Source: Clostridia bacterium (lineage in GTDB: Bacteria; Bacillota; TC1; UBA5767). Taken from it: a DNA stretch of 64,000 bases. The first letter of the stretch is position 1, and every line of letters starts with the position of its first letter. The notes under the pieces were generated by a model. The model searched no databases. It was given only the letters and a program-made list of their open reading frames with translations, and was not told the origin of the DNA. The position numbers and the translations under genes were made by a program. Positions 15,295-25,962 of this stretch are shown here, one piece after another. The DNA is taken from positions 1,784,001-1,848,000 of the forward strand of contig CP069393.1 of assembly GCA_016887505.1 (NCBI GenBank). The letters are read 5' to 3'.

Positions 15295-16800
15295 TTATTT
15301 GCTAAGGGTTACTTTTTGTGTCTCTGCATTGTAATCCACTTGGTAGCCCAGCTGTTCACCTAAAAAACGGGCCGGCAGATAGGTCCTGCCATCCTTCATC
15401 AGTAGGGGTTGGCCTAGTTCTTCTTTTACACCATTAACCCAAACTTCTCTTTCACCAGGAGAAAAAATCATCTCCTCCGTTTGCCCCGTAACGACTACCT
15501 TCTCATTTTCATACCGCACTGCCAATTTAAGTAATCCACAGGTATCTCTAAGGGGAACAACAAAGGCTCCTTGATTTAATGTGTTTTCAGCAGAAAGTGT
15601 TTTGGCATTCATGCCCAACAACACTTTTGGTTCATTTAAAACAAAGGTCATTTCTCCCGGTACAAAACTGTCTATTTCTTTTTCAATTAATTCTAGCGCA
15701 AAAATTAGTGGTTCATCCATATTCTCATCATCTGGAATATCTTCTACCAAATAGTCTGGACTAAGCCCAACACCATGAATCGGAGTATCTAAGGGGCCCT
15801 TAAACTCGGCCGTCGTCATTTTCAAAACATCATTATTGGGTAACGTAAAGATGGTTTGCATCACGCCCTTACCATAGGTTGGTTCTCCTACAAATTTTGC
15901 TTGCTCATTATCTACTAGGGCCGCGATAACAAGTTCAGATGCAGAAGCCGTCCCAGCATCGCCAAGAACAACTACGGGAACGCCTACACCAGGACTGGTG
16001 CTGCGGTATTGGTGGATTAGTTCATCTTGTTTATATATCTTGGTCAGTGTGGATTCCTTATCCAAAATTGTTGAGGCCATGGATAAACCAGAGGTTAACC
16101 GTCCACCAGTATTATCCCTAAGATCCAAAACAATTCCTTCCAGACCCGGATTGGATTCACGCATCTCTCCTAGCATTCTCATAAACCAAGCACCTACATC
16201 CACACCAAAGGTATTCACTTTAATATAGGCCACGCCATCTTCAGACAGCTCAGCGATCTTGCCACTCATGTCAATAATTGCTCGTTCCATGACAAAAATT
16301 ATCGTTTCATCTTCGCCCTCACGCTTCATCTCAATCACTACATTGCTACCAGGATTACCCCGAAGGAGAGGAACCAGTTCATTTAAAGCCAATGACTGTA
16401 CGTCTTGTCCGTCCACAGAAACAAACATATCGCCTACTTGAATGCCGGCAACTTCTGCTGGAGTTCCTGACAAGACACCATTTACAATGTTCCCTGTCTC
16501 TGTCGTGGCTAAGGAAACCCCTAAACCACCAAAGGTTCCTTCGACAATTCTATCAAAGTTTTCATATTCTTCTCTGGTTAAATACTCGCTATACTTATCC
16601 AAAGACAAAAGAATATCTTCCAAGTCAGCTTTTTCTAGATCTACTCCATCTAAATTCAAATAATACTCATTTTCTACAATAGTTCGAATTGCCTCTTCTG
16701 TTTCTTGGTCAATCTCTGCCGCCAAAGCTGGCAGGGTACTACCAAAGAGCATAAAAACACTTAAAACTAGCGTAATCATTTTTTTGTTCGTGCTTTTCAT
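15295..16800 (-). CDS. Exported S41 C-terminal processing peptidase with C-terminal stalk domain
   Basis: Serine protease of the CtpA/CtpB family, exported by the signal peptide at residues 1-28 (cleavage near ALA-AE). The order is an N-terminal helical region, a PDZ domain near 90-165 with GGLGVSLA and VNGVLSGTPAEVAGI, the S41 catalytic core with LDLRDNTGGRL, the Ser in TASASE (286-288) and the Lys in EPTYGKG (Lys311), and a last 60 residues like the copper-amine-oxidase N-domain (VWVNGVKEEL, GRTYLPARFLGEQLG). That last domain is often found on wall-facing proteins of Clostridia. It overlaps the upstream glycosyltransferase by 4 nt (ATGA), so it is produced with the surface glycosylation genes. 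Substrate unknown. Confidence 0.9.
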   Translation of the reverse strand: MKSTNKKMITLVLSVFMLFGSTLPALAAEIDQETEEAIRTIVENEYYLNLDGVDLEKADLEDILLSLDKYSEYLTREEYENFDRIVEGTFGGLGVSLATTETGNIVNGVLSGTPAEVAGIQVGDMFVSVDGQDVQSLALNELVPLLRGNPGSNVVIEMKREGEDETIIFVMERAIIDMSGKIAELSEDGVAYIKVNTFGVDVGAWFMRMLGEMRESNPGLEGIVLDLRDNTGGRLTSGLSMASTILDKESTLTKIYKQDELIHQYRSTSPGVGVPVVVLGDAGTASASELVIAALVDNEQAKFVGEPTYGKGVMQTIFTLPNNDVLKMTTAEFKGPLDTPIHGVGLSPDYLVEDIPDDENMDEPLIFALELIEKEIDSFVPGEMTFVLNEPKVLLGMNAKTLSAENTLNQGAFVVPLRDTCGLLKLAVRYENEKVVVTGQTEEMIFSPGEREVWVNGVKEELGQPLLMKDGRTYLPARFLGEQLGYQVDYNAETQKVTLSK

Positions 16801-18200
16801 TTTTTATCCTTTCTTACAATCAATCGAATGCCGCTCGCAAGCCAGGTCATGCTCCATGCAATGAGTAGGCAAAACAGCGGTACCATCGGAAACAGATAGC
16901 GGGGTTGTCCTTCAAATACAAAGAAGGTGGCAGAAAAGGTCAGCCAAATAAGCCAAATACTGGCTTGTCCTTTCAGGGCATCTCGTCGCCAGAACAGATT
17001 TGCCAGGGCCATCAACATATAGAAAACTAGTCCCCCTAATAATAATTTGTGGGCTATATCACTTACCTGATAGACCCAACCACGGTTTTCAAGGGGTCCT
17101 CCACTAGAGGTGTAGTCCACGGCAAATTGCACATCTGCAGCATTTTTGTAAACATGGTAGGTTTTTTGCAAACCTAGCTTGGCAAATTTTTGGGGATTGT
17201 TGAGAATCCAACGTTTTCCTTCTGCCCCTGCCAGTTCGTCCACCTTGATTTCATCCCAAAAACCTGTTTCCTCATTCTTCATACCGGCAATCGGGCTACC
17301 GGGAATTTTGAAGGGATCCTGCCAGTGTCCTTCCGCATAATCATTGTTATTCAAATACAAGGTAATACCACCGTTACTGGAAATGGGAATCACTTTATTG
17401 AATACCTGGTAGTTTCGTATGCTCCACGGCAAGATTGCCAGCAACATTACCAAAGCAATCATCACACTCCAACCCAATGAGCCAAACAAGGCCTCCCAAA
17501 ATCCGGACTGTTTTCGTTCTCTGCCTGGATTTTCATATACTCCAATGGTCTTATGTTTTATACCTTCAATCTGCTTTTGGTAGTTGGCTTCAATCTGCGT
17601 TTCTTTTTTATCTTCATGCCTACGTTGAATAAGAAGCATTGGAAATCCCAACATAAAGAACAGCATCATAAATGGCTTAATATAGGCAAGTACTGCCCCG
17701 CAAAGACCTAGTAGCAGGGGTTTACTCATCTTTCTAGTTTCTTTAGAAAAAAGTAGGAGGGTTAGTAAAAGAAAATAGGTAAACAGAATTTCTGTTGAAA
17801 TCACACTTGTGTAGACGATTTGTCTCGGCGAAAGTGCCAACAAAATTGCCGCAAGCAAGCCTGTTTCTGCACGAAAATATCGCTTCCCTAATAAATATAC
17901 CAAAAATACACTGTCTACACTAAGGAAAACATTCAGTATCTTGGGAGCCAACAAGTTTTCGCCAAATACTCGGTAGATGAGACTCAAATAGAAGGAAAAG
18001 CCAACTGGTTCAAAAGCAGTATAATGACCAAACAGCTTATATCCCTGCCCACTTGCAAGAGATACTGCTCCCAAGTGATATTTCAAGAAATCAAATACGG
18101 GAACGGTATCGCAGTAGAAAATCCATGCCAAGCGCAAAGCACTTGCAATAATTAATATGAAACCTAAGATAATATATTCATGCTTTATCGATTTTTCCAT
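16797..18200 (-). CDS. GT39-like polytopic glycosyltransferase
   Basis: Predicted GT-C membrane enzyme that transfers a sugar from a polyprenyl-phosphate donor to an acceptor outside the membrane (ArnT/PMT-like). The 467 residues hold about ten membrane segments; the first extracytoplasmic loop has the acidic FDFLKYHLGAVSLASG, where GT-C enzymes keep their catalytic Asp, and LSPRQIVYTSVISTEILFTY follows. A long soluble loop (about 275-370) lies before the last segments (FFVFEGQPRYLFPMVPLF). It overlaps the GT2 gene by 16 nt and the S41 gene by 4 nt. With GT2 and GtrA it forms a make-flip-transfer set. The acceptor, perhaps the S-layer proteins next door, is inference. Confidence 0.85.
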   Translation of the reverse strand: MEKSIKHEYIILGFILIIASALRLAWIFYCDTVPVFDFLKYHLGAVSLASGQGYKLFGHYTAFEPVGFSFYLSLIYRVFGENLLAPKILNVFLSVDSVFLVYLLGKRYFRAETGLLAAILLALSPRQIVYTSVISTEILFTYFLLLTLLLFSKETRKMSKPLLLGLCGAVLAYIKPFMMLFFMLGFPMLLIQRRHEDKKETQIEANYQKQIEGIKHKTIGVYENPGRERKQSGFWEALFGSLGWSVMIALVMLLAILPWSIRNYQVFNKVIPISSNGGITLYLNNNDYAEGHWQDPFKIPGSPIAGMKNEETGFWDEIKVDELAGAEGKRWILNNPQKFAKLGLQKTYHVYKNAADVQFAVDYTSSGGPLENRGWVYQVSDIAHKLLLGGLVFYMLMALANLFWRRDALKGQASIWLIWLTFSATFFVFEGQPRYLFPMVPLFCLLIAWSMTWLASGIRLIVRKDKK

Positions 18201-18925
18201 GGCACCGACTTTCTAAGTCTCATTCGAATCCGAAATAAATCGATGAACATATCGATTGAATCACGTATCGCACTCACTTTTGTTTCTTCAGAATTGATCC
18301 AAACAATGGGTACTTCCTGCACTGTATAGCCCAATTGTTCCGCCAAAAACAATACTTCTACATCAAAGCCAAAACGGTTTATTACCGCTTTTGGAAAAAT
18401 ATCTTCAACTGCTTCTTTTGAGAACAACTTAAATCCACACTGGGTATCGCGCATTTTAGTATGAAAAAGAAGCCTCACCAATAGATTGAAGGTTCTGCCC
18501 ATAAAAACCCGGTAAAAGGCCTGGGCTACTTGAACATCTGAGCCTTCGATGCTTCTTGAGCCGATGCTTACGTCTGCTCCCTTAATACTGTTGTCGAGGA
18601 GCTTGTCTAATTCTTCAATGGGTGTGGACAGGTCGCTATCGGAAAACAACCGGTAACGTCCCTTAGCGTGTAGCATCCCGTTTCGAACTGAAAATCCTTT
18701 TCCCTTATTTTCCGGGTTGCGCACGAGTCTAATTCTTGCATCCTTTTTTACCCATCCCTTAACCAAATCTACAGTTTTATCCGTACTGCCATCATCGACT
18801 ACGATGATTTCTGCCTGCCAGTCCTTGCCATCCAGATAGGCTATTATTTGGGTCAATGTCGGCCCCAAACGATTTTCTTCGTTATAGGCCGGAAGGATGA
18901 TACTCATATATATTTCTTCACTCAT
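18185..18925 (-). CDS. Dolichyl-phosphate-mannose-synthase-like GT2 glycosyltransferase
   Basis: Cytoplasmic enzyme predicted to move a hexose from a nucleotide sugar to undecaprenyl phosphate. The 246-residue protein has the GT-A signature IILPAYNEENRLG, IIVVDDGSTDKT near 38, the DxD-type FSDSDLSTPIEE near 90 and MRDTQCGFKLFSKEA near 155, as in DPM1/GtrB enzymes, but no C-terminal membrane segments, so it relies on GtrA or a peripheral helix (RIRMRLRKS). The ATG at 18925 overlaps the gtrA stop by 8 nt and has AAGGACG upstream; the open frame to 18964 is not used. The sugar cannot be predicted. Confidence 0.88.
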   Translation of the reverse strand: MSEEIYMSIILPAYNEENRLGPTLTQIIAYLDGKDWQAEIIVVDDGSTDKTVDLVKGWVKKDARIRLVRNPENKGKGFSVRNGMLHAKGRYRLFSDSDLSTPIEELDKLLDNSIKGADVSIGSRSIEGSDVQVAQAFYRVFMGRTFNLLVRLLFHTKMRDTQCGFKLFSKEAVEDIFPKAVINRFGFDVEVLFLAEQLGYTVQEVPIVWINSEETKVSAIRDSIDMFIDLFRIRMRLRKSVPWKNR

Positions 18926-19328
18926 GATTGTCGTCCTTTCCATCCGAAAAAACCATCTTCTCAAACACGAGAAATCGGCTCAGTATATAGTTCACTATGA
19001 TGACGATTACATTCATCAACACTTGACCCCAAAACTCATCGACCTGTGCTTTTTCCACAAGCAAAACTAGACCGATGTAATTTACCAAGAAGGCAAATGC
19101 TCTGGCTAAAAAAAATAGGAACATTTCTTTTTTAAAATTGCCCCTACTAGCAAATACATATTTACGATTGAATGCGAAAGCAAATAAAATAGACAGTGCT
19201 ACCGCAATGCTGACCGCAATTCGGTAATCTACACCCAAAACCAAAAGCGCCTTATAAACAATCAAGTTCAACAAGGTGGTGAGTCCACCAATAACCAAAT
19301 AGCTGCTATAATGAATCCATTTTTTCAT
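18918..19328 (-). CDS. GtrA-family polyprenyl-phosphate-sugar flippase
   Basis: A 136-residue protein with four membrane segments (about 8-28, 36-52, 70-92 and 100-118) typical of GtrA. Family landmarks are YLVIGGLTTLLNLIVY near the amino end, FAFNRKYVF at the second loop and ILSRFLVF near the carboxyl end. GtrA proteins are thought to move undecaprenyl-phosphate-linked glucose or similar sugars across the membrane. It lies between a heptose-kinase-like gene (3-nt gap) and the DPM-like GT2 (8-nt overlap). The context supports a lipid-linked sugar pathway rather than a stand-alone transporter. Confidence 0.88.
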   Translation of the reverse strand: MKKWIHYSSYLVIGGLTTLLNLIVYKALLVLGVDYRIAVSIAVALSILFAFAFNRKYVFASRGNFKKEMFLFFLARAFAFLVNYIGLVLLVEKAQVDEFWGQVLMNVIVIIVNYILSRFLVFEKMVFSDGKDDNHE

Positions 19329-19331
19329 ATG

Positions 19332-20306
19332 TCACTCTTTCTTATGCTTTAGATAGTCTTCTAATTCTTCCAATTCTTCTAAGCCAATGGCTGTCGTGCC
19401 TAATTTACCTTTTTTGATTGCTGCTCCTAGACAAGCCATCTTACAGCTCTTCTCTAGATCGGAACCTCCAACTAAAAACGCACCCAATACCGCCATGATT
19501 GTCGCTCCAGCTCCTGTAATATCTACCAGGTTATCGCACATGTTTTCGTATCTATGCATGCGGTAGTTGGCATCTAAAAGCAACAGGCCAAATTCAGAGC
19601 GGTCCACTAACACATTTTCCACTTTTAGAAGTGATTTCATTTTTTGCATGGCGATCTCAGCATCTTTCAGGCTTACAATCTGCATGCCTGCCCATTTGCC
19701 TAAATCATTCATGTCTGGCTTAATGAGATAGGCTCCATAGTAAGGCTGGGGGTTGCTTGCTCGCAAACTACAAAGTACCTTTTTATCTTTTCTCTTGCAG
19801 AGTCGAACTAAATAGGAAGCCATCTTGCTACTTAGAAATCCCTTACCATAATCTGCTAGAATGACCAGATCTACCTTCTTAAGTCTTGCTTCTATTTGCA
19901 ATAAAATTTCCTGTTCCACCTCAGAGTTCATGCTATCTAGGCATTCTCTATCCATACGGAATACTTGAACCTGATTGCCAGCCACAATTCTTGTTTTTGT
20001 GCTAGTTGGTCTTTTTTCATCTTTGACGAGTAGGTCTAAGTTAATGCCTTTTTCCTGCATAATACCTTGAAGCTTCATTCCTTGGTCGTCTGTACCCACA
20101 ATACTACAAAGCATCACTTCATTCTTCAAGCTAGCGACATTTGCAGCTATATTTGCTGCTCCACCTAGGTGGTATTCTTCATACTGGTATTCCACAATGG
20201 GTATGGGCGCTTCTTTGCTTACACGCTCCATTTTGCCATACACATAATGGTCCGCCATCGAATCTCCCACCACCAAAATGCTTTTATTTCCTTGACCTTC
20301 GTCCAT
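19332..20306 (-). CDS. PfkB-family, heptose-7-phosphate-kinase-like protein lacking the catalytic Asp
   Basis: Resembles RfaE/HldA D-glycero-D-manno-heptose-7-phosphate kinase over 324 residues: ILVVGDSMADHYVYGK near 10, YHLGGAANIAANVASL near 45-60, KTRIVAGNQVQVFRMDRE near 104-121, VILADYGKG near 148 and VDITGAGAT near 261-269. In the PfkB family the last motif is GAGD and its Asp is the catalytic base; here residue 268 is Ala (GCG codon). The substrate loop after residue 180 (LRASNPQPYY) also differs from the usual DPK. The fold is kept but phosphoryl transfer is doubtful, so it may be a pseudokinase, sugar-binding or regulatory protein. First gene of the glycosylation operon; AGGAGG precedes the ATG. 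Confidence 0.8.
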   Translation of the reverse strand: MDEGQGNKSILVVGDSMADHYVYGKMERVSKEAPIPIVEYQYEEYHLGGAANIAANVASLKNEVMLCSIVGTDDQGMKLQGIMQEKGINLDLLVKDEKRPTSTKTRIVAGNQVQVFRMDRECLDSMNSEVEQEILLQIEARLKKVDLVILADYGKGFLSSKMASYLVRLCKRKDKKVLCSLRASNPQPYYGAYLIKPDMNDLGKWAGMQIVSLKDAEIAMQKMKSLLKVENVLVDRSEFGLLLLDANYRMHRYENMCDNLVDITGAGATIMAVLGAFLVGGSDLEKSCKMACLGAAIKKGKLGTTAIGLEELEELEDYLKHKKE

Positions 20307-20333: not shown

Positions 20334-20342
20334 ATTATATCA
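20334..20342 (-). promoter_or_regulatory. Extended -10 promoter of the glycosylation operon
   Basis: TGATATAAT on the minus strand, 27 nt upstream of the PfkB-like start. A TGTCAC lies 18 nt upstream as a weak -35. Nothing else is recognised between here and the terminator at 20493. Confidence 0.45.
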
Positions 20343-20447
20343 TGCTTTGAACTGGATGTGACATAAAGTGCCATATTATGAGGAGCTAATGAGTAAAGAA
20401 AACCGCATATTTTGGTTCTCGCCTTTGAGTCATATTATATTATATGT

Positions 20448-20493
20448 AAACAAATAAAAGAAAGCCCAAGGAACGAATTAACGTTCCTTGGGC
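20448..20493 (-). terminator. Terminator of S-layer gene copy 1
   Basis: Perfect 12-bp stem (GCCCAAGGAACG / CGTTCCTTGGGC, 6-nt loop) followed by TTTCTTTTATTTG on the minus strand. Almost the same hairpin follows copy 2 at 23353-23382. Confidence 0.92.
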
Positions 20494-20561
20494 CAATCTT
20501 CATTTTATTCGCCTAACAATCTAGGCTACCTTATTTTTTACCACCTATAAGATAGTAACAG

Positions 20562-23111
20562 TTACGGCAGCATAGGAGTGGCAGGTGCGTAGAAATATAA
20601 ACCTGAAACATCCATCAAGTCATCTAAGATATCTTGGTCAACAACAGCCAATACTACAATTTTATAGTCATCATCAAGAACTACAATAACGTAGTCTGAA
20701 GTGTTCAAGTCATCAGCACTGATCACTTCACCACCGTCAGTCAAGTCAATGATCAAGGCATCAATATCTCCATCGTCCAATAGGAAGTCGTAGTTTTCGT
20801 TGTTCACGTTACGTGCATCCCACTCGCCGATATCAATGGTGTTGTCAGAGTTTACAGCGCCTGAAGGCAATTGGCCATAAACATACTCAGTAACTATGGT
20901 CAAGCTATCAACATCATCACCAGACATGTCATATTCGAAAATGGCATTTTCTAGGCTAGAGCTTACCAACACGTCTTCGTTGTATACATAGGAAGCAACG
21001 CCGCTTTCAGTAATCAACTCAACGTAGTAGTCGCTACCAGATTTCCAAGAATCAAGGAATCCAGCATAGATACCGTCTGTTACAGTTAGAGCGTCAGTCA
21101 GTACTACGTAGTCAATGTCGCCATCATCTACAACAGTGTAACCAATCGATCCAGTACCGAAGTCAGCATCTGCTACATCGCTCCAGTCAGTCATCATCCA
21201 ATCATCTGAATCTGACTCTGAAATGTCAAAGAATAAGGTTCCAGAAACTACTTTGTCTTCATCAATTCTTGAATAATCATCATCAATATCACTAGCGGAA
21301 ATAAGTCCTTGAGAGAACATATCGATGCTGTCGATTTCTCCATCATCATTCAATGAGAATTCTACAATGTCACCTTTTGAAACAGAGTTATCGTATATGT
21401 CAGATACTATGCCATCTAATGAACCTTCAAAATTAATTTCAACATCACCGTCTTCAATGTAATAAGTAGCGATTTCGCCAGTTGCAAGGAAGAGTTCGAT
21501 TCTGTATTCGTCTTCAAATCCGCCAAATGCTGCTTCGATTTCGCCAGTTGCTACACCAACATCAGAAGCACTGCTTGAGCCATCAATATCTCCGGAAATA
21601 GCATATACATTACCAAATCCATCAAGCATAAGAGCTACATCTTCATCTGAGAAGTCTTCAAACAGGGTAAGAACGTCTTCAGAAGTACCATCACTGAATT
21701 CAGCACCGTTGTCTTCTGAGTAGAACCAAACATTAGCACCTAAGTCATAGGTAGTTCCGTTAACTTTTACATCGTCAGAACTGAAGCGAGTCATTTCACC
21801 TTCAACCATGTCTCTTACAACATAGATTGCGATGTCTTGGTCGATGTCGCTATCACTGTTGTTGTCAACTTCGTTCCAGTAAACAACATCCCACTCTTCA
21901 ATGTCTTCTAATGAGTCAACACCGTAAACAACTACTCTGTCATCGTCAGTATTAACGAGTAAGGAGCCATCATCTGCGCCGTCTTTTTCCATCAGTTCAG
22001 CAAATTCATCATCGAAGTCAACTTCGTCAATCAACATGCTTGCCATATAGTCATAATCAGTAACGTCGATAAGAGTAACATTGTCATCATCACCAAATGC
22101 GATTCTAACGTTGTCAAAGCCATCTGCTAATGGTCCCGGCACGTAATCAAGGCTGTAGCTTATGATTTCATCGTTTACGATAAGTACAGCGCCTTCTGCG
22201 TCATATTCATCGTCATCGTCATCAAATACCAATTCATCCAAAGCGTCAAATGAGTCAATGTTCAACATTTCTACGTCTGCCATATCATCAACAGCTACGA
22301 TAGTGTCGTCATCAACATAGAAGTCACACATTACACCAATATAATCTCTTACATTGAAACCTACAGCTACAGTGTCAATATCGCTGTCGTTAGTAGAGAT
22401 TTCTCTGTCTTCAATGTCAAGGCTGCTACCAAGAACTACGAAAGCATCGTCGATAATTACATCTTCAATTACTTCAAAGCCAAGTCCATCAAGAAGAGTA
22501 TCATCATCCTCATTGAATTCACTATCATCAGAGTTCCATGATACTGTGTTCAAATCCAAAGCGGCACTAGCGAATACGAAAATGTCACCTCTCAAAGCAG
22601 CTGCGCCGCTAGTGAAGGTTACATCGTCCGTAATGTCAAGAGCTGAAGCTTTAACGATGTAGTTCAAAGGCCATGCGCCTGGAAGGTCGCCTTTGCCATA
22701 GCCTAATACGTTAAGAATCATTGTGATTGCTTCACCATAGGTTACGTCAGCATTCGGTCTAAAGCTTCCATCTGGATATCCAGATATCCAGTTTTGAGTT
22801 TGCGCTAGGTTGATGTAACCAGTGTACCATACGCTAGTTTTAACATCTGAGAAGGTAGAAGGTACATCCTTTAGGATGTCTGCTGCACTGCCCATACCTG
22901 AAAGCTCAGCTAAAATTACACACATTTCTGCTCTTGTAATGGTTTGGTCTGTACCGAGGCTACCATCTTCGTAACCATCGATAATTCCCAATCCCAACAA
23001 TCTGTTAGCTGCATCATCAGCTTTATCAGAAAGTGCAAAAGCGGGAGTTACTGCTGCGAACAAAAAGATCAGAGCAATAACAACGGAAAGAATCTTGTTA
23101 GATTTTTTCAT
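20562..23111 (-). CDS. S-layer protein with SLH domains, copy 1 (downstream copy)
   Basis: Exported, wall-bound surface-array protein of 849 residues. A signal peptide (MKKSNKILSVVIALIFLFAA, cleavage near AFA-LS) precedes three SLH modules at roughly 27-85, 86-145 and 146-205 (GLGIIDGYEDGSLGTDQTI, INLAQTQNWISGYPDGSF), which bind secondary wall polymer. The remaining 640 residues are repetitive in texture and very rich in Asp, Glu, Ser and Val with few Lys or Arg (FDDDDDEYDAEG, FSLNDDGEIDSIDMF), suggesting a calcium-binding beta-rich array. Most of the sequence matches copy 2; it differs mainly near 300-345, 590-625 and at the carboxyl end (YAPATPMLP). Its promoter has a degenerate -10. AAGGAGG lies 11 nt before the ATG. 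Confidence 0.93.
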   Translation of the reverse strand: MKKSNKILSVVIALIFLFAAVTPAFALSDKADDAANRLLGLGIIDGYEDGSLGTDQTITRAEMCVILAELSGMGSAADILKDVPSTFSDVKTSVWYTGYINLAQTQNWISGYPDGSFRPNADVTYGEAITMILNVLGYGKGDLPGAWPLNYIVKASALDITDDVTFTSGAAALRGDIFVFASAALDLNTVSWNSDDSEFNEDDDTLLDGLGFEVIEDVIIDDAFVVLGSSLDIEDREISTNDSDIDTVAVGFNVRDYIGVMCDFYVDDDTIVAVDDMADVEMLNIDSFDALDELVFDDDDDEYDAEGAVLIVNDEIISYSLDYVPGPLADGFDNVRIAFGDDDNVTLIDVTDYDYMASMLIDEVDFDDEFAELMEKDGADDGSLLVNTDDDRVVVYGVDSLEDIEEWDVVYWNEVDNNSDSDIDQDIAIYVVRDMVEGEMTRFSSDDVKVNGTTYDLGANVWFYSEDNGAEFSDGTSEDVLTLFEDFSDEDVALMLDGFGNVYAISGDIDGSSSASDVGVATGEIEAAFGGFEDEYRIELFLATGEIATYYIEDGDVEINFEGSLDGIVSDIYDNSVSKGDIVEFSLNDDGEIDSIDMFSQGLISASDIDDDYSRIDEDKVVSGTLFFDISESDSDDWMMTDWSDVADADFGTGSIGYTVVDDGDIDYVVLTDALTVTDGIYAGFLDSWKSGSDYYVELITESGVASYVYNEDVLVSSSLENAIFEYDMSGDDVDSLTIVTEYVYGQLPSGAVNSDNTIDIGEWDARNVNNENYDFLLDDGDIDALIIDLTDGGEVISADDLNTSDYVIVVLDDDYKIVVLAVVDQDILDDLMDVSGLYFYAPATPMLP

Positions 23112-23433: not shown

Positions 23434-25962
23434 CTACCACTCAATAGGAGCGTAGAAATCTAAACCTGAAACATCCATCAAATCATCTAAGATATCTTGA
23501 TCAACAACAGCCAATACTACAACTTTGTCGTTACTATCAAGAACTACGATAACGTAGTCTGAAGTGTTCAAGTCATCAGCACTGATAACTTCGCCGCCGT
23601 CAGTCAAGTCAATGATCAAGGCGTCGATATCTCCATCATCCAATAGGAAGTCGAAGTTTACGTTGTCAATGTTACGTGCATCCCACTCGCCGATATCAAG
23701 CGTATTATCAGAGTTTACAGCGCCTGAAGGCAATTGACCATAAATATACTCAGTAACAATGGTCAAGCTATCAACATCATCACCAGACATGTCATATTCG
23801 AAAATGGCATTTTCTAGGCTAGAGCTTACCAACTCATCTTCGTTGTATACATAGGAAGCAACGCCGCTTTCAGTAATCAACTCAACGTAGTAGTCGCTAC
23901 CAGATTTCCAAGAATCAAGGAATCCAGCATAGATACCGTCAGATACAGTTACAGCGTCAGTAAGTACTACGTAGTCAATGTCGCCATCATCTACAACAGT
24001 GTAACCAATCGTTCCAGAATTGAAGTCAGCGTCTTTTACATCGCTCCAGTCAGTCATCATCCAATCATCTGAATCTGACTCTGAAATGTCAAAGAACAAG
24101 GTTCCTGAAACTACTTTGTCTCCATCGATTCTTGAGTAGTCATCATCAATATCACTAGCTTCAATAGATCCTTGAGAGAACAAATCAACGCTATCGATTT
24201 CACCATCATCATTCAATGAGAATTCTACGATGTCACCTTTTATAATGTCTACATTAGTGTATGCATCTGCAACCTCAGCGCCATCAACATCAACTTCGTC
24301 ATCTTCGAAGTAGTAAGTAGCGGTTTCGCCAGTTGCAAGGAATAACTCGATTCTGTACTCATCTTCAAATCCGCCAAATGCAGCTTCGATTTCGCCAGTT
24401 GCTACACCAACGTCAGAAGCAGTACTTGAGCCATCAATGTCTCCGGAAATAGCATATACATCACCATATCCATCAAGCATAAGAGCTACATCTTCATCTG
24501 AGAAGTCTTCAAACAGGGTAAGAACGTCTTCAGAAGTACCATCACTGAATTCAGCACCGTTGTCTTCTGAGTAGAACCAAACATAAGCACCTAAGTCATA
24601 GGTAGTTCCGTTAACTCTTACATCGTCAGAACTAAAGCGAGTCATTTCACCTTCAACCATGTCTCTTACAACATAGATTGCGATGTCTTGGTCGATGTCG
24701 CTATCACTGTTGTTGTCAACTTCGTTCCAGTAAGCAACGTCCCACTCTTCAATGTCTTCCAATGAGTCAACACCGTAAACGATTACTCTGTCATCGTCAG
24801 TATTAACGAGTAAGGAGCCATCATCTGCGCCATCTTTTTCCATCAGTTCAGCAAATTCATCATCGAAGTCAACTTCGTCAATCAACATGCTTGCCATAGC
24901 GTCATAATCAACAACGTCGATAAGAGTAACATTGTCATCATCGCCAAATGCGATTCTAACATTGTCATAGCCATCAGCTAACATTGAAGGAACGGAATCA
25001 AGATCATTATCAACAATTACATCATTTATGATCAGTACAGCGCCTTCTGCGTCGTATTCATCATTGTCATCATCAAATACCAATTCATCGATATCATCAA
25101 ATGAGTCAATATCCAACATTTCTACATCTGCCATATCATCAACAGCTACGATGGTGTCATCGTCTACATAGAAGTCACACATTACACCAATGTAATCTCT
25201 TACATTGAAGCCTACAGCTACAGTGTCAATATCGCTGTCGTTAGTAGAGATTTCTCTGTCTTCAATGTCAAGGTTGCTACCAAGAGCTACGAAAGCATCG
25301 TCGATAATTACATCTTCAATTACTTCAAAGCCAAGTCCATCAAGAAGAGTATCATCATCTTCATTGAATTCACTATCATCAGAGTTCCATGATACTGTGT
25401 TCAAATCCAAAGCGGCACTAGCGAATACGAAAATGTCGCCTCTCAATGCAGGTGCTTTGCTAGTGAAGGTTACATCGTCCGTAATGTCAAGAGCAGAAGC
25501 TTTAACGATGTAGTTCAAAGGCCATGCGCCTGGAAGTTCGCCTTTACCATAACCTAATACGTTAAGAATCATTGTGATTGCTTCGCCGTAAGTTACTTGA
25601 GCATTCGGTTTGAATGTTCCATCAGGATAACCAGAGATCCAGTTTTGAGTTTGAGCTAGGTTGATGTAACCAGTGTACCATACGCTAGTTTTAACATCTG
25701 GGAAAGTAGAAGGTACATCCATTAGGATGTCTGCTGCACTACCCATGCCTGAAAGCTCAGCTAAAATTACACACATTTCTGCTCTTGTAATGGTTTGGTC
25801 TGTACCGAGGCTACCATCTTCGTAACCATCGATAATTCCCAATCCCAACAATCTGTTAGCTGCATCATCAGCTTTATCAGAAAGTGCAAAAGCGGGAGTT
25901 ACTGCTGCGAACAAAAAGATCAGAGCAATAACAACGGAAAGAATCTTGTTAGATTTTTTCAT
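23434..25962 (-). CDS. S-layer protein with SLH domains, copy 2 (upstream copy)
   Basis: Exported SLH-anchored surface protein of 842 residues, a close paralogue of the next gene downstream. The signal peptide and three SLH modules are nearly identical to copy 1 (GTFKPNAQVTYGEAITMILN in module 2), as is the acidic carboxyl region. Local replacements occur near 305-345 (INDVIVDNDLDSVPSML), near 590-620 (FEDDEVDVDGAEVADAYTN, four residues shorter) and at the end (DFYAPIEW). It has a consensus -10, its own terminator and an AAGGAGG site, so it is probably the highly expressed array protein. No sortase motif; anchoring is by the SLH modules. The array lattice role is inferred from the family. Confidence 0.93.
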   Translation of the reverse strand: MKKSNKILSVVIALIFLFAAVTPAFALSDKADDAANRLLGLGIIDGYEDGSLGTDQTITRAEMCVILAELSGMGSAADILMDVPSTFPDVKTSVWYTGYINLAQTQNWISGYPDGTFKPNAQVTYGEAITMILNVLGYGKGELPGAWPLNYIVKASALDITDDVTFTSKAPALRGDIFVFASAALDLNTVSWNSDDSEFNEDDDTLLDGLGFEVIEDVIIDDAFVALGSNLDIEDREISTNDSDIDTVAVGFNVRDYIGVMCDFYVDDDTIVAVDDMADVEMLDIDSFDDIDELVFDDDNDEYDAEGAVLIINDVIVDNDLDSVPSMLADGYDNVRIAFGDDDNVTLIDVVDYDAMASMLIDEVDFDDEFAELMEKDGADDGSLLVNTDDDRVIVYGVDSLEDIEEWDVAYWNEVDNNSDSDIDQDIAIYVVRDMVEGEMTRFSSDDVRVNGTTYDLGAYVWFYSEDNGAEFSDGTSEDVLTLFEDFSDEDVALMLDGYGDVYAISGDIDGSSTASDVGVATGEIEAAFGGFEDEYRIELFLATGETATYYFEDDEVDVDGAEVADAYTNVDIIKGDIVEFSLNDDGEIDSVDLFSQGSIEASDIDDDYSRIDGDKVVSGTLFFDISESDSDDWMMTDWSDVKDADFNSGTIGYTVVDDGDIDYVVLTDAVTVSDGIYAGFLDSWKSGSDYYVELITESGVASYVYNEDELVSSSLENAIFEYDMSGDDVDSLTIVTEYIYGQLPSGAVNSDNTLDIGEWDARNIDNVNFDFLLDDGDIDALIIDLTDGGEVISADDLNTSDYVIVVLDSNDKVVVLAVVDQDILDDLMDVSGLDFYAPIEW

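Follow-up and report, generated by a model that had tools for sequence, protein, structure and literature searches.

In kinases of the PfkB/ribokinase superfamily, the aspartate of the GxGD motif is the catalytic base, and its replacement by asparagine in Pfk-2 abrogates activity and affects substrate binding only mildly (PMC5405513). The NxxE motif of the superfamily binds Mg, and asparagine-to-aspartate changes in this motif are found in active ribokinase-family enzymes (PMC5931981). Studies of pseudokinases mostly concern the protein-kinase fold. The bacterial protein pseudokinases are kinase-like proteins that have lost catalytic residues (PMC12599244); however, they belong to the Ser/Thr-kinase family, whose fold is unrelated to that of the PfkB sugar kinases. 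Within the PfkB fold, kinase activity was not detected for the plant proteins FLN1 and FLN2 (PMC5405513, PMC9698557). No bacterial PfkB pseudokinase was found in the open-access literature that we searched. Known extracytoplasmic glycosylation systems are made up of three parts, the flippase GtrA, the glycosyltransferase GtrB, and a GT-C enzyme, and their described prototypes lack a PfkB pseudokinase component (PMC11127046).

The window, a 64,000-nucleotide stretch of the contig CP069393.1 of a Clostridia bacterium, contains a pfkB-like gene on the minus strand (19332..20306). The gene is read from 20306 down to 19332, with an ATG start preceded by AGGAGG, and encodes a putative 324-residue pseudokinase, the derivation of which from an HldA/HldE kinase is indicated by Pfam, TIGR02198, and an AlphaFold model. 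The protein belongs to the PfkB/ribokinase superfamily fold (PF00294, E-value 5.8e-29), and among the NCBIfam models it is matched best by TIGR02198, the HldE kinase domain (4.2e-83). The score of 279 bits is below the 345-bit equivalog cut-off, which is a weak test when used alone, as several homologues with an intact GAGD motif also score under 345 bits. The closest solved structure is that of HldA from Burkholderia cenocepacia (PDB 4e84, E 1.3e-40). AlphaFold, given an alignment of 34 sequences, produced a confident model (pLDDT 92.2, pTM 0.91), which superimposes on 4e84 with a TM-score of 0.90 and an rmsd of 1.4 over 308 columns, and on E. coli ribokinase (RbsK) with a TM-score of about 0.8. 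The HldA/HldE kinase domain, which is a D-glycero-beta-D-manno-heptose-7-phosphate kinase, is thus the best match in both sequence and fold, and the model indicates that the HldA fold is retained.

Codon 268 of the pfkB-like gene (19503..19505, minus strand) reads GCG and places an alanine at the position of the catalytic aspartate (D255 of RbsK, D264 of HldE). The alanine lies within DITGAGAT, the family equivalent of which is D-V-T/S-GAGD-T, so that GAGD has become GAGA. The first-pass annotation had reported this codon, and both our reading of it and the only close relative found bear it out. The relative, from a second species of the genus (locus L009, record DAOUPV010000113.1, Clostridia MAG G002), encodes a protein that is 80% identical, lies beside gtrA as well, and also contains DITGAGAT, with its alanine encoded by GCT. 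In contrast, the more distant homologues all have aspartate at this position, including 43 of 43 HldA/HldE homologues from the phylum sample, E. coli, and Azospirillum, and 32 of 32 from viral contigs. Among the homologues aligned, alanine occurs only in the two members of the genus. The catalytic aspartate of the superfamily motif G/AxGD is therefore absent in both species.

The GCG codon is two substitutions away from any aspartate codon. Since the second species has Ala268 encoded by a different codon, a sequencing error at this position was rejected. A decaying pseudogene was likewise discarded, because the frame is open in two species and is under strong purifying selection. Taken together, error or decay has a negligible probability of explaining the locus. 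The selection estimates derive from within-genus comparisons of two orthologues in total, which gave a pN of 0.106 and a saturated pS of 0.86 for pfkB. The pN values of gtrA (0.100) and of the GT2 glycosyltransferase gene (0.114) are comparable, and those of the GT-C (0.139) and S41 (0.211) genes are higher. Different codons are used at 147 of the 258 residues that are identical between the two PfkB-like proteins. Identity between the two species reaches 90% over residues 228–300; this segment includes much of the altered site and is under the strongest constraint in the protein. These values indicate that the pfkB-like gene is under strong purifying selection; the two features that define a pseudokinase, loss of catalytic residues and purifying selection on the gene, are both present.

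The ATP- and Mg-binding site is altered at four further positions. Ser180 (19767..19769, minus strand) replaces the invariant aspartate of the DPK/DSR loop. The NxxE motif for Mg and phosphate is absent, as it has changed to D198-x-x-D201 (19704..19715, minus strand; N187 and E190 of RbsK), and Asp235 (19602..19604, minus strand) replaces the invariant threonine of the ATP loop (T223 of RbsK). We take N187, E190, T223, and D255 of RbsK, assigned as equivalents by alignment, to be contacts to ATP, Mg, and the acceptor. The family residues Asp180, Asn198, Glu201, Thr235, and Asp268 are present in 75 of 75 homologues, which combine the 43 kinase domains introduced above with the 32 from viral contigs, the two sets being aligned separately. 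Three degenerate GATD paralogues of the selenomonad type were excluded from the 43, and they too have aspartate at the base position. Both members of the genus have Ser, Asp, Asp, Asp, and Ala at the five positions. The first-pass annotation overlooked N198D, E201D, and T235D. It had noticed the change of the substrate loop, where SLRASNPQ stands in place of DPK/DSR and the aspartate is indeed lost, but the loop is less altered than it held, because the basic residue persists as Arg182.

The main rival to a pseudokinase is an enzyme with a rebuilt active site, because three aspartates (Asp198, Asp201, and Asp235) were gained near the nucleotide site, in the most constrained region of the protein. 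Such an enzyme might use a different base for another phosphoryl transfer, or act as a sugar-phosphate hydrolase or mutase for the operon. The fixation of the three aspartates in both species would fit this, and ribokinase-family members with other donors and motif changes are known (PMC5931981). However, the base position lacks a carboxylate, aspartate in place of the ATP-loop threonine should disfavor nucleotide phosphates, and the DPK aspartate, invariant in the 75 homologues, is gone. We consider a new enzymatic function unlikely.

The sugar-binding half of the protein, comprising the N-terminal sugar and lid regions, appears from the alignment to be largely preserved. Forty-two positions show a conservation of 95% or more across the 43 homologues. 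Of the 26 that lie in residues 1–160, the window protein retains 23, and of the 16 in residues 161–324 it retains 8 (Fisher p = 0.011, to be read as a guide only, as the split at residue 160 was set after inspection of the data). Column 113, with a change of Q to V, was omitted as alignment-dependent. The residues kept include D19, R28/S30/E32/A33/P34, G48/G49/N52/N56, K104/R106, and R117/D119; of these, all but A33, P34, and N56 are the sugar-side residues that are invariant in HldA/HldE. They correspond to the motifs GDxxxD, RxSxEAP, GGAAN, KxR, and RxD, and the sequences GGAANIAAN and AGNQVQVFRMDRE are present as quoted in the first-pass annotation. Asp262, Arg182, and the anion-hole GAG likewise persist. 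Because the sugar-side residues are kept, sensing or carrying of a sugar phosphate is plausible.

The pfkB-like gene is followed after 3 nucleotides by gtrA (18918..19328, minus strand), which encodes a 136-residue putative polyprenyl-phosphate-sugar flippase (PF04138, 3.3e-22). Next are genes for a GtrB/DPM1-like GT2 (18185..18925, minus strand; PF00535, 2.5e-31), a 467-residue GT-C membrane glycosyltransferase of the PMT_2 type (16797..18200, minus strand; PF13231, 1e-13; 77% identical to its orthologue), and an S41/PDZ protease (15295..16800, minus strand; PF03572, 4.8e-34), which is the last of the conserved run and is followed by recJ. The TTG start listed for the GT2 reading frame (18185–18964) is probably wrong, and the inner ATG at 18925 matches the orthologue and gives a short overlap with gtrA. 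Each of the five genes overlaps or almost touches the next, and their order is identical in the second species. The Pfam matches thus bring together GtrA, a polyprenyl-phosphate GT2, and a GT-C transferase, as in the three-component glycosylation systems (PMC11127046). A promoter-like site, GTCACA-17-TATAAT with a TG before the -10 element (extended -10), was found upstream of pfkB by consensus match only (20334..20362, minus strand); it matches 10 of 12 consensus positions, and such sites are no more numerous in the region than in shuffled sequences. A terminator-like hairpin of 13 pairs (20463..20494, minus strand; sequence match) separates the operon from an upstream SLH gene. The spacing and overlaps, the upstream terminator and promoter matches, and the gene order conserved in the second species support the first-pass proposal that pfkB heads a glycosylation operon.

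The tight coupling of gtrA to pfkB would also suit a pure protein scaffold, for example one that dimerizes and holds the GT2 or GtrA at the membrane, without a small-molecule ligand. The plant proteins FLN1 and FLN2 provide a precedent for a PfkB fold in which kinase activity was not detected (PMC5405513), but they are fructokinase relatives that keep the aspartate in G/ASGD, whereas the window protein is derived from HldA and has lost it. The preferential retention of sugar-side residues (23/26 vs 8/16) would be needless for a pure scaffold, and we regard this explanation as rather improbable.

Two tandem SLH proteins are encoded just upstream of the operon (20562–23111 and 23434–25962). They are 91% identical, about 845 residues long, and contain about 18% aspartate, and each gene is followed by a near-identical terminator-like hairpin. 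Their sequences indicate that a putative S-layer gene was duplicated recently. A link between the operon and the S-layer is possible, being suggested by position only. Strict linkage is not supported, since genome G001 has an SLH homologue and the operon was not found there. G001 does not bear on gain or loss of the operon as a unit, because its contig breaks off within the SLH gene, exactly at the expected beginning of the operon.

The source genome consists of one closed contig of 2,563,013 bases. Neither it nor the second species (G002) contains a match to HldC/HldE-II (TIGR02199) or to GmhA (TIGR00441), and the matches to the GmhB HAD family (TIGR01656) in the two genomes are short and weak, with none full-length. 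The partners of HldA/HldE in heptose synthesis were therefore not detected in either genome. In contrast, the six GAGD kinase neighborhoods that we read have an adenylyltransferase and/or a GmhB-like HAD gene adjoining the kinase. In G206, kinase and adenylyltransferase form a single fusion, which SIS-domain GmhA and HAD genes adjoin; HAD and adenylyltransferase genes are adjacent to the kinase in G182 and G047; an adenylyltransferase gene is adjacent in G339 and G037; and in G040 a HAD gene is adjacent and the adenylyltransferase is on another contig. An annotation relying on PfkB/HldE similarity would lead one to expect a heptose pathway, which the genome appears to lack.

If the protein still phosphorylated heptose or another sugar slowly, using solvent or a neighboring residue as the base, the retention of Asp262, the sugar pocket, and the GAG of the anion hole would be explained. 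However, five invariant residues of the ATP, Mg, and base sites are altered, GmhA, GmhB, and HldC were not detected for substrate supply or product use, and Pfk-2 activity is abrogated by the D-to-N change at the base (PMC5405513). We consider residual kinase activity very unlikely.

The explanation that we favor, with modest confidence, is that the pfkB-like protein is a lineage-specific pseudokinase derived from HldA/HldE-I, which binds a sugar phosphate or a partner protein on behalf of the three-component glycosylation system. The loss of the base and of four more invariant ATP- and Mg-site residues, fixed in two species under purifying selection, and the missing heptose-pathway partners uphold the pseudokinase assignment of the first-pass annotation. 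Judging from the altered residues, phosphoryl transfer by the PfkB route has very probably been lost. The binding of sugar phosphate has been retained somewhat more probably than not, and the chances appear even that the protein acts on the GT2, GtrA, and GT-C system as a regulator or adaptor. Some observations speak against the favored explanation: GAG, Asp262, and Arg182 are kept, the E-to-D change is conservative, and N-to-D is tolerated in active relatives (PMC5931981). The three gained aspartates could form an alternative catalytic or metal site near the nucleotide site, and the sugar-side residues may have been retained for folding or dimerization instead of binding.

Based on the favored pseudokinase reading, a mechanism can be proposed. 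The pseudokinase would be incapable of phosphate transfer by the PfkB mechanism, and its retained acceptor pocket would bind a sugar phosphate or a sugar-nucleotide precursor. Its function toward the co-encoded system would be regulatory, or that of a chaperone or adaptor. Within this system, the GT2 would load a sugar onto polyprenyl phosphate, GtrA would flip the loaded carrier, and the GT-C enzyme would transfer the sugar to a surface acceptor, possibly the neighboring S-layer proteins. We tentatively speculate that the pseudokinase is a dedicated ligand-sensing subunit, which measures how much of a phosphorylated sugar is present and gates the loading of the polyprenyl carrier in a lineage without a heptose pathway. 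A PfkB pseudokinase might then bring to light a regulatory component that has been missing from the picture of Gtr-type surface glycosylation. A clean bacterial case, with an ancestral family that is structurally solved and assayable, would show how a sugar kinase becomes a protein that binds sugar or has a regulatory role.

In a tree of 48 kinase domains, which was arbitrarily rooted and in which long-branch placement is doubtful, the stem of the pair measures 3.1 changes per column and the tips 0.17 and 0.085. A long stem with short tips fits rapid change followed by constraint, as might be expected after a change of function. No further GAGA homologue was seen among the TIGR02198 or P0001 matches in 399 genomes of the phylum, 59 genomes of the G206 class, plasmids, and phages, where the matches were under 36% identical and residues were read for fetched loci only, nor among the 32 aligned homologues from viral contigs. 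A wider clade of GAGA homologues was rejected on these grounds. A scan of genome contigs, the reach of which is limited to close relatives, found no orthologue beyond that of the second species.

The genome contains another PfkB match (L037:5897-7009, at 580 kb of G000:C1), an HTH-PfkB protein that keeps the aspartate (NGSGD) and is encoded beside a PsuG-like gene; judging by similarity, it is probably of the pseudouridine kinase type. In three genomes of family f30, a third HldE-kinase paralogue was observed (L071:5875-6855, L070:6336-7316, and L069:6189-7379), in which GAGD has changed to GATD, DPK to DMS, and NxxE has arginine in place of glutamate. This paralogue is possibly a second, independent degenerate HldA, as suggested by its motifs. 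It is followed downstream by an M16/PreP-type protease in L071, identified by Pfam, and by a similar open reading frame in L070.
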